Shown here: one piece after another, positions 52,670 through 55,059 of the stretch
Layout: every line of letters begins with the position of its first letter
How positions within the stretch are numbered: the stretch's first letter is position 1
Assembly: GCA_002813895.1 (NCBI GenBank)
Contig: CP024912.1
Span: 62,001-126,000, forward strand
Direction: 5' to 3'
Origin: Cyanobacterium sp. HL-69
Lineage (GTDB): Bacteria > Cyanobacteriota > Cyanobacteriia > Cyanobacteriales > Cyanobacteriaceae
DNA length: 64,000 nucleotides
Made by a program: the position numbers and the translations under genes
Notes under the pieces: model-generated
What the model was told of the DNA's origin: nothing
What the model saw: the letters and a program-made list of their open reading frames with translations, nothing else
Database searches by the model: none

Positions 52670-53434
52670 CTAACTTATTACAGCGCTTCCCGTACCCTGA
52701 AACATAAGCCAAGAGAGAATAAAATTTAACATAAAAATGGTAATCAAAGAAATAACCACGGCGGCGGTGGTAGATTGCCCCACTCCTTTGGCACCTCCAC
52801 TGGTGGTTAAACCCCAGTTACAGCCGATAATGGCTACGGAAGCCCCAAAAATAGCGGACTTTATCATACAAGCAATTACATCCCAAGTACCTAAAAAGTT
52901 GCGAATGGAATCAAGAAAAACCCTACTAGGAATATCGTACAAAGACTCCGCAATAATCAATCCTCCCGTAATACCCACCACCAAAGAACACATCGTTAAT
53001 ATAGGGAGCATAAAAAAGCAGGATAAAACTCTGGGAGTCACTAAATAGTCAACAGGATCTGTTTTTAAGATCTGGAGCGCGTCAATTTGTTCAGAAACTT
53101 TCATAGTGCCGATTTCGGCGGCGAAGGCACTGCCTACCCTCCCCGCCAAGACCACAGCGGTAAGTACGGGGGCTAGTTCACGGGTAAGGGCGATCGCCAA
53201 TACTCCCCCCACGGCGCTAGTGGCTCCAAAATAAATAAACTCCCGTGCCACTTGAATAGTAAATACCATCCCCACAAAGGCCGCCGTTATCAGGGCAATG
53301 GGTAAAGAAGCAGGCCCGACGAAGGACATTTGCTCGATGGTATTGAGACGATATACTTTCAATTGGATAAGATGAATTACAATCTGTCCCGTTAAAAAAA
53401 TTGCAGAGGAGATACGTTGAAAAAGTTTATTCAT
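52670..53434 (-). CDS. MlaE/TGD1-family ABC permease (Ycf63-type)
   Basis: A 254-residue permease with five or so membrane segments. Family motifs: QMSFVGPASLPIALITAAFVGMVF, LTRELAPVLTAVVLAGRVGSAFAAEIGTMKVSEQIDAL and GVGQSTTAAVV near the end. It forms the membrane core of the MCE lipid transporter. First gene of the minus-strand cluster; the lipoprotein, ATPase and MCE genes follow, with a 256-bp gap before the lipoprotein. Confidence 0.93.
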   Translation of the reverse strand: MNKLFQRISSAIFLTGQIVIHLIQLKVYRLNTIEQMSFVGPASLPIALITAAFVGMVFTIQVAREFIYFGATSAVGGVLAIALTRELAPVLTAVVLAGRVGSAFAAEIGTMKVSEQIDALQILKTDPVDYLVTPRVLSCFFMLPILTMCSLVVGITGGLIIAESLYDIPSRVFLDSIRNFLGTWDVIACMIKSAIFGASVAIIGCNWGLTTSGGAKGVGQSTTAAVVISLITIFMLNFILSWLMFQGTGSAVIS

Positions 53435-53506: not shown

Positions 53507-53515
53507 GTTAGAAAC
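53507..53515. repeat. Left target duplication of the MITE (GTTAGAAAC)
   Basis: Nine bases identical to 53668-53676 on the other side of the inverted-repeat element. Confidence 0.85.
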
Positions 53516-53667
53516 TGATGTTACGCAAAAATATAATTAGTTTAAGATGGTAAAAACGTTGGATGTTCATATTGTGTTTGTACACGTGCTGGTTAGGGGG
53601 CTAGGAGTTAGGCAAGGGGCTTAAGCCCCTTGTTAAAACTTAACTTATAAATGAGTGCGTAACGTCA
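53516..53667. mobile_element. 152-bp MITE with 9-bp target duplication
   Basis: Ends TGATGTTACGCA and TGCGTAACGTCA form a 12-bp terminal inverted repeat with one mismatch, and both are bordered by GTTAGAAAC. It has no coding capacity. Inside are TTAGG-type short repeats and one CAAGGGG hairpin (53613-53632). The right target copy contains the stop codon of the beta-barrel gene (TAA at 53669-53671). A 9-bp duplication fits IS4- or IS1-like transposases acting in trans. Confidence 0.85.
53613..53632. repeat. CAAGGGG hairpin repeat, copy 4
   Basis: Perfect palindrome CAAGGGGCTTAAGCCCCTTG inside the MITE; on the minus strand it lies 36 bp after the beta-barrel gene stop. Confidence 0.85.
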
Positions 53668-53668
53668 G

Positions 53669-54754
53669 TTAGAAACGAAAAGAAACATTTACATAGGGCC
53701 CATTTTGGTTAACATCCACATCAAAATCCGTTGATCTGGTTAAATTAGAAGTATAACTGGTATAGCCAAAGCGATAACCCAAACCTAAAGAAGTCTTGCC
53801 TTCAGAAAACTTCCAATCAACCCCCGTACCAAGATTCCATTGGGTTAAGCCACTAATACCAAAACCAGACACAGAGCCTCCCGTAACCCATGCCCACTGA
53901 GGAGAAAGATTAACCCTTGCTCGTCCGCCAATAATAGGCGATACCACCGTTGTATCACCATTAAAACTGGCCCTACCCAAACCAGGGCTACTAAAGTTTA
54001 ATCCTAGGTCAACCCCAGTGATATTCAGTCCCCCAAACACATCAAAAACCGATCGCCCCAGGTCAAATTCCGTTTCTACCCCATCTGGATTAACCTTCGA
54101 TGGATCATAAAAACGGTAAGCCCCTCCCAAAGATAAAGACCATAATGTGCTGTCAACCTCACCATTTAAGGTGATGGGAATACCGCCAAAGGAAGGGGGC
54201 AAAGTACGAGTTACCGAAGCACTGTTATCGGAAGACAGGTAATCAAAGTCCGCAAAAAATCCCCAACGATAATCAGGATTCCAAGCCTTTACTCTGCCAA
54301 AAAAAGCAAAATTGAGGTCATCTTTGATGCTTTTTCTGATCTGACTAGCATCTAGGGAAAAATCACCATTCACACTACCAGCGGCGGCATCACCGTAAAT
54401 CGTAAAAGGAACATAAATAGAAGGTTGCACGAGAAAATGCCAAGAATTTGCAGAGCTAGTTTCTTCGGTTTCCAAATCCGATGCACTCTGGCTAACGAGT
54501 CCATTTTCTTTCATGGTTGCATCCCAAAAAAAGTCTATGTCTGCGTTGATTTGTGTAAATTCAAATCCAGCGTCAATTCCTTTTTGAGTCACTTTAATGT
54601 CTTCCGTTTCCCTCTCAGAATCAGTGATGATTTCCTCATTACCGTCAACGATGATGGGATTTATCGGTACTCCAGAGGCTTGAGCATAAGGGGCGATCGC
54701 CATTAACCCACCAACCATAACCCAAGGACATAGCAACAAACTTTTTTTGCACAT
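53669..54754 (-). CDS. Outer-membrane beta-barrel protein of unknown function
   Basis: A 361-residue secreted protein with a signal peptide (MCKKSLLLCPWVMVGG ... APYAQASG). It has many alternating-hydrophobicity strands (FFADFDYLS, WSLSLGGAYRFYD, LGLGYRFGYTSY) and a C-terminal aromatic (VNVSFRF), the signature for outer-membrane insertion. ATG at 54754 is preferred over an in-frame GTG at 54775 because a GAGG sits 9-12 bases upstream and the signal peptide starts there. It neighbours the Mla-like cluster on the same strand but the MITE separates them. Confidence 0.82.
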   Translation of the reverse strand: MCKKSLLLCPWVMVGGLMAIAPYAQASGVPINPIIVDGNEEIITDSERETEDIKVTQKGIDAGFEFTQINADIDFFWDATMKENGLVSQSASDLETEETSSANSWHFLVQPSIYVPFTIYGDAAAGSVNGDFSLDASQIRKSIKDDLNFAFFGRVKAWNPDYRWGFFADFDYLSSDNSASVTRTLPPSFGGIPITLNGEVDSTLWSLSLGGAYRFYDPSKVNPDGVETEFDLGRSVFDVFGGLNITGVDLGLNFSSPGLGRASFNGDTTVVSPIIGGRARVNLSPQWAWVTGGSVSGFGISGLTQWNLGTGVDWKFSEGKTSLGLGYRFGYTSYTSNLTRSTDFDVDVNQNGPYVNVSFRF

Positions 54755-55059
54755 TGAAACTGACCTCAACACCAAATTTTAAATAGATAATCGTAAGTGT
54801 AAAAGACAAAAAAGAAAAAAGTCAAAATTTATTACAAAAATGAGAAAAATTTTTTTAGTATCGATACTATCTAATTATGGTATAAAACCTAATTGAATAA
54901 CGTTAGAAATTTAGACATCAAAATATTATCACCATTCCCCGTTGCCTGTTCCCCGTTCCCTAAAAACGAGCAAGTATAAAATTCATGTAACAAAATCCAT
55001 ACTCATAGTCAAAAAAAATGTAGGCTTAAAATGTAACCCAAAAAGGAGAACCAGATCCC
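54755..55059. other. 305-bp divergent control region of the beta-barrel and amidohydrolase genes
   Basis: No gene. It holds a 14-bp perfect palindrome TAGTATCGATACTA at 54856-54869, a plausible operator. It also holds a repeat-like stretch around 54917-54961 (AAATATTATCACCATTCCCC, then TTGCCTGTTCCCC). AAAGGAG upstream of the amidohydrolase ATG (55042-55048) is a good ribosome-binding site. Confidence 0.55.

Follow-up and report, generated by a model that had tools for sequence, protein, structure and literature searches.

A 154-bp MITE of Cyanobacterium sp. HL-69, its probable helper insertion sequence and its gene-bearing relatives

The element described here, located in the window, i.e., the whole 64,000-nucleotide stretch of Cyanobacterium sp. 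HL-69 DNA that was analysed, is a MITE of 154 bp (53515-53668), present in the genome in eight copies. With its 7-bp duplication at a TTAWTAA-like site, it was very likely moved in trans by the NF049921-group transposase of an insertion sequence (IS) residing on contig C2; this role of the C2 transposase, like any effect of the insertion on the neighbouring genes, is what we infer from the comparison of sequences. The region 53507-53676 reads GTTAGAAAC-TGATGTTACGCA...TGCGTAACGTCA-GTTAGAAAC, in agreement in sequence and coordinates with the first-pass annotation, which had described a 152-bp MITE with a perfect 9-bp target duplication. The ends, the copies and the duplications bear out the MITE, while the length has to be corrected. 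The terminal C/G lies inside the inverted repeat, thus the 13-bp inverted repeats are CTGATGTTACGCA on the left and TGCGTAACGTCAG on the right, the element measures 154 bp (53515-53668) and the duplication is TTAGAAA. The element is short, has no transposase gene and, according to the ORF lists of the region, contains no ORF. The features of the locus are as follows:

52670 to 53434, minus strand: MlaE-type permease gene (PF02405, 264 bits), co-directional with the flanking ORF and downstream of it
53508 to 53514, no strand: left target-site duplication TTAGAAA, its 7-bp length taken from the family tally
53515 to 53527, plus strand: left terminal inverted repeat CTGATGTTACGCA, the same sequence as at either end of the IS (1,108 bp) on C2
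53528 to 53544, plus strand: left subterminal region, A-rich
53545 to 53590, no strand: core, with full-length matches in its own genome only, among the matches listed from 60 genomes searched
53591 to 53612, no strand: G-rich degenerate repeat stretch GGTTAGGGGGCTAGGAGTTAGG, of which variants occur
53613 to 53632, no strand: perfect palindrome CAAGGGGCTTAAGCCCCTTG (hairpin), also a dispersed free-standing repeat, in some form in 8/8 copies
53633 to 53655, minus strand: right subterminal region, common to the IVP-bearing elements
53656 to 53668, minus strand: right terminal inverted repeat TGCGTAACGTCAG, one mismatch to the left end
53669 to 53675, no strand: right target-site duplication TTAGAAA, with the TAA of the flanking gene (53669-53671, minus strand)
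53669 to 54775, minus strand: flanking 368-aa ORF with a TTG start, a beta-barrel gene by the first-pass annotation

The G-rich stretch may represent a decayed heptamer array.

The MITE occurs in its own genome far beyond chance. The search for further copies of the same ends, proposed with the first description, returned eight copies, i.e., seven long matches (71 to 100% identity, E 2e-84 to 6e-22) and one copy in three pieces; the other 41 matches listed for the query are mostly the hairpin alone. Seven of the eight copies are flanked by a perfect duplication of 7 or 8 bp. The copy in three pieces (C1:2671037-2673199) was considered as a hidden autonomous parent and ruled out, since it is a MITE copy that two IS630-like insertions with DDE_3 and HTH domains have interrupted; the ORF pieces in it score 60-92 bits with the IS630 models of NCBIfam, below the cut-off of 100. 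In this split copy (L031, G000:C1:2670500-2673700), the IS630-like inserts lie one on each side of the core, apparently at TA sites. The sister copy nearest to the window MITE is 90% identical, thus there is no burst of near-identical copies that would mark a recent wave, and perfect duplications are so common in the MITE family (34/58) that they date little. For the recent movement that had been read from the perfect duplication, these data therefore argue weakly. The lack of the insert in relatives shows only that it is young relative to species divergence. The element is neither single-copy in its genome nor conserved at this locus across distant species, the two outcomes that had been named as fatal to the original description.

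The duplication length was tallied in 58 two-ended elements, with the inverted repeat taken as CTGAYGTTACGCA. The set is a hand-chosen sample among the matches listed, with one-ended loci dropped, and consists of nine own-genome elements (eight MITE copies and the IS) and of others from the genomes G002, G004, G008, G010, G011, G012 and G013. Perfect duplications of 7 bp were found in 27 elements and of 8 bp in seven, one-mismatch duplications in six at 7 bp and two at 8 bp, and none in 16; when flanks were swapped between elements (3,306 pairings), a 7-bp match occurred in 2.8% and an 8-bp match in 0.06%. The 27 perfect 7-bp sites give the consensus target TTA-W-TAA. The window copy taken alone fits 9 bp exactly, as do two other own-genome copies, so that the element could be assigned the ends TGATGTTACGCA/TGCGTAACGTCA and a 9-bp duplication after the manner of IS10/IS50-type IS4 elements; IS10 has a 9-bp duplication and CT ends in the excerpt of PMC2266710 used here. 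Against this, 34 elements fit 7 or 8 bp once the C/G is assigned to the inverted repeat, 7 or 8 bp is also the length found at related full ISs, and the 9-bp model fits just the three own-genome copies among the 58 elements, which rules it out for the family. We regard the IS10/IS50-type reading as very improbable. The family data favour 7 bp, sometimes 8, and the duplication at the window copy is best read as the 7-bp TTAGAAA.

Ends with at most one mismatch were numerous in two genomes, 54+50 in G002 and 25+24 in G010 among the matches listed, compared with 0 and 1 for the reversed pattern. In G002, six loci (L235, L245, L249, L253, L255 and L259) form a MITE class of their own, 94 bp long, which has identical 13-bp ends and another core, and L252 and L258 are 97-bp relatives of this class. 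Two single ends in the HL-69 genome (C1:679186 and C1:2997376) belong to another subfamily, have no partner end and were left out of the counts.

The insertion lies at the stop codon of the 368-aa ORF, which is conserved, at 58-91% identity, in each of the four genomes of the same genus that were searched (G001-G004). A Pfam search of this ORF returned no family; its terminal F and alternating pattern fit a beta-barrel. The gene-side duplication copy holds the TAA of the gene on the minus strand, as originally reported, thus the protein is unchanged. The accompanying claim, that the gene owed its survival to a duplication which restored its end, describes the anatomy correctly but calls for no special event, as a TTAWTAA target has TAA on both strands. 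The gap before the mlaE-like gene, which would be 73 bp in the absence of the insert, is 234 bp. A comparison with strains lacking the insert, which had been suggested, found the same gene pair without it in G003 and G004, where the stop is followed by 26 and 47 bases, counted from the sequence, and then by the mlaE-like start. In G001, no insert follows the stop of the gene and the downstream sequence differs.

Whether stop codons are preferred was assessed with open frames of at least 55 codons; the G002 flanks extend about 200 bp, which limits the detection of stops there. Eleven of the 58 element targets overlap a stop and two lie inside a frame, whereas among 379 control sites in the window with the same 7-mers, 25 overlap a stop and 177 are inside a frame. 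With in-frame sites left out, the enrichment is not significant (11/56 vs 25/202, p 0.19), and special targeting of stop codons is thus not supported. The own-genome sites alone give 4/9 at stop codons with p 0.02, in a post hoc and small comparison. The simplest reading of the pattern is the presence of TAA on both strands of TTAWTAA together with the loss of insertions in coding sequences.

The hairpin had been proposed to link two repeat families, and it is indeed an independent repeat that is found in some form in every MITE copy. The palindrome CAAGGGGC-TTAA-GCCCCTTG (window 53613-53632; L009-L029) exists as a free-standing dispersed repeat, the free copies being bordered by TTAA at one flank and by CC at the opposite flank. 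Of the 18 occurrences of CAAGGGGCNNNNGCCCCTTG in the own genome, four lie inside MITE copies; the sequence was found in 7/12 genomes searched, with 73 occurrences in G010, and some of the free copies carry CAAGGGGTTTAAACCCCTTG, a paired change. Given the position of the element between two co-directional genes, the MITE copy could have been kept as a regulatory 3'-end module, with the hairpin insulating or stabilising the transcript in the stretch that separates mlaE from the upstream gene. The minus strand of the MITE folds far better than its shuffles (-35.4 vs -19.3 kcal/mol, z -5.2, 0/200), and the retention of the hairpin in 8/8 copies agrees with such a role, but the fold comes partly from the paired transposon ends, as is expected of any such element. 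Moreover, a scan of the element for T-run terminators found none, its promoter-like sites do not exceed expectation (2 found vs 1.0 +/- 1.1 expected), and the empty locus in G003 and G004 means that the arrangement is not conserved. A retained regulatory module is improbable in our view.

A full IS with the same ends, whose presence the first-pass annotation had suggested looking for, is located on contig C2 (86 kb), which is probably a plasmid. For the region surrounding the IS, a single near match was found, a Geminocystis plasmid covering 11% of the query. The IS is 1,108 bp long, has perfect CTGATGTTACGCA 13-bp ends and an uninterrupted 352-aa transposase ORF, and is the sole element found in the own genome that combines these ends with a transposase gene. 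The transposase passes the NF049921 (IS701_2) model with 344 bits (cut-off 250), and its best score with the NCBIfam IS4 models is 104 bits, below the cut-off of 250. Several observations stand against this IS as the helper, namely, its flanks have no recognisable duplication, the MITE shares nothing with it except the 13-bp ends, and no 7- or 8-bp duplication is present in 16/58 elements and 13/24 full ISs. An origin of the MITE by internal deletion of the C2 IS is ruled out, since identity stops after 13 bp. In G002, an internal-deletion derivative of the IS (L232, G002:C30:49928-50543) is 616 bp long and has intact ends and transposase residues 1-69 and 232-352 left, so the step from an IS to a non-autonomous element does occur in the clade.

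The relatives of the IS comprise at least 80 from a scan of the genome collection and 422 records from a plasmid search. We examined 24 full-length ISs, i.e., 17 from the collection scan, six plasmid matches and the own one, which come from Cyanobacteria, Proteobacteria and a Latescibacteria MAG. The ends of all 24 differ from CTGATGTTACGCA by a few bases at most, and their sizes are 1,095-1,191 bp. Duplications of 7 bp were found in nine and of 8 bp in two; the other 13 have none, and a reading of their flanks by eye revealed no 4-bp duplication either. The YREK motif, Y(2)R(3)E(6)K, is present in 20/20 transposases (four of the 24 ISs left out). The IS on an Acinetobacter schindleri plasmid has a 51% identical transposase, the same ends and a 7-bp duplication.

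The IS701 family, as described in the part of PMC2266710 consulted, has a 4-bp duplication, lacks YREK (tyrosine in 4/27) and measures 1,400-1,550 bp, whereas the ISs analysed here have 7-8 bp duplications, a complete YREK and about 1.1 kb. Neither the 4-bp duplication nor the lack of YREK given there for IS701 was found, thus the name IS701 fits poorly and 'NF049921 group' is used instead. According to the same excerpt, the IS4 subgroup ISPepr1 has YREK, a 7-8 bp duplication, YT ends with the consensus YT-AA-YTT---A and a length of 1,500-1,600 bp. The NF049921 ISs share with that description the YREK motif, the duplication length and ends starting with YT, but are shorter (1,095-1,191 bp) and differ at 2/8 end-consensus positions, and no IS4 model of NCBIfam scored above its cut-off for the resident transposase. 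The resident IS is like IS701_2 (NF049921) in that its transposase passes the cut-off and its length of about 1.1 kb holds a single ORF. ISAba11 is also about 1.1 kb in size. The portions of two papers available to us place ISAba11 in IS701 (PMC8472584, PMC7326120), and we liken it to the present group by this family filing.

In the proposed mechanism, the DDE transposase of the C2 IS (NF049921, IS701_2) would most likely recognise the 13-bp ends in trans, excise or copy the element and join it to target DNA cut with a stagger of 7 or, in some cases, 8 bases. The target would be AT-rich, palindromic and close to TTAWTAA, and repair would leave the 7-bp duplication. At the window locus, the target was the last codon and TAA of the minus-strand gene (TTTCTAA), and the site before insertion would read ...TTTAGTTAGAAACGAAAAG... 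with a single TTAGAAA. A comparable arrangement is that of MITEAba12, a bacterial MITE from Acinetobacter with a 9-bp duplication (excerpt of PMC6382973). Both are short and non-coding, with ends shared with a resident IS, a duplication of the length typical of the IS, and identity to the IS at the ends only; judged from that excerpt, the present MITE differs in its ends, duplication, host and presumed transposase family, and in having gene-bearing relatives with the same subterminal sequence. Nezha (Zhou 2008, cited in PMC10969869) is a further cyanobacterial MITE. A literature search with the 13-mer ends returned only an unrelated reovirus paper.

Beyond the 13-bp ends, the MITE matches elements of other genera in its subterminal sequence, with 94% for bases 2-36 (G010) and 95% for bases 127-168 (G002) among the matches listed. 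In three genera, elements with the MITE subterminal sequence carry a four-helix-bundle (23S rRNA IVP) gene; such elements lie in G010 (L104-L110, L307-L309 and L312), in G002 (L117 and L248) and in G014 (L269, with degenerate ends). The first 28 bases of the MITE (left end and subterminal region) differ at one position and its last 32 bases at four positions from the G010 IVP-bearing elements. PF05635 matches in G010 are found at 18 places, 17 of which were fetched: ten are between two ends, three beside one end and four beside none. Perfect 7- or 8-bp duplications flank eight of the ten two-ended elements, one has a duplication with a mismatch and one has none. The G010 locus L104 has an intact 124-aa ORF that reaches 136 bits with PF05635 (cut-off 33.8), and many other G010 copies are partial. 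Against the bAvd model PF22296, the IVP gene of the relatives scores 38.9 bits, below the cut-off of 40. Elsewhere, a one-ended IVP element was detected in G003 and remnants in G008 and G013.

These elements bear on the question of which enzyme moves the family today. In G010, 49 transposon ends were counted and some elements, the eight IVP elements above included, have perfect duplications, but no NF049921-group transposase exceeds the cut-off. Such a transposase above the cut-off was likewise not found in G003, G004 and G011, despite many such elements, and the matches in G007 and G010 are weak (45-49 bits, below the cut-off). In G010, another or a lost enzyme may act on the elements, and a transposase other than that of the C2 IS could move the whole MITE family. 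Since NF049921-type ISs match the ends in 24/24 cases and the duplication length in 11/24, and no element other than the C2 IS was found in the own genome with these ends and a transposase gene, we consider this unlikely and retain the C2 IS as the presumed helper.

Among the 42 IVP sequences placed in a tree, the five of the element type (L269-L273) group together with support 97/93; L272, whose ends are unrecognisable, was counted with them by resemblance. The pairwise dN/dS of these five genes is 0.08-0.25, indicating purifying selection on element-borne IVP genes. Short arrays, most of them with a period of 7, lie on both sides of the IVP genes, those on the left being reverse-complementary to those on the right. 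Arms were compared at loci L268-L293 and L339-L365. A left-right complementarity of at least 18 was reached by 16/20 loci of this cyanobacterial family (13/16 outside the element group), compared with 0/400 random window spans, and by 17/21 order-wide loci (27 loci, six of them too short). Among gene controls, 0/44 window genes and 3/21 neighbour genes reached 18, the latter partly against the arms. The stricter demand of period 7 on both sides held for 11/21 order-wide loci. When arms were swapped between IVP loci, only 5/20 left arms scored best with their own right arm, i.e., no locus-specific pairing was seen; many of the loci have heptamer types in common or are mutual copies, which accounts for this. 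The one IVP gene of the own genome (G000:C1:1059440-1059751, L279) has arms and no transposon ends. A literature search on IVP genes with heptamers or inverted repeats returned no such paper.

In Coxiella, a 23S rRNA intervening sequence carries an IVP/S23 ORF (excerpt of PMC4990558). The IVP-bearing relatives of the MITE resemble the intervening sequences described there in that a PF05635 ORF lies between complementary arms, and differ in that they lie outside rRNA, their arms are mostly heptamer arrays and one lineage is enclosed by IS-type ends. We tentatively propose, as a possibility that we would not yet favour, that the window MITE is a stripped-down descendant of a transposon whose IVP-type gene lay within the loop formed by an inverted heptamer stem. 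The cyanobacterial 'stem plus IVP gene' cassettes would then be a widespread, unrecognised mobile kind, built like 23S intervening sequences outside rRNA, of which one lineage took IS ends before the genera of the family separated.

The MITE itself is ordinary, and our analysis adds a defined MITE family and its probable helper IS. The 7-8 bp duplications at TTAWTAA and the retained YREK argue that the NF049921 group has been wrongly filed under IS701. The relatives of the MITE matter more than the MITE, as in them a non-autonomous transposon has retained a small conserved gene, and the IVP cassette is a lead worth following. To our knowledge, a function for the IVP proteins has long been lacking. 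The inverted arms at most of the IVP genes examined provide a testable handle on the role of IVP, which might consist in binding of the arms or in mobility of the cassette.
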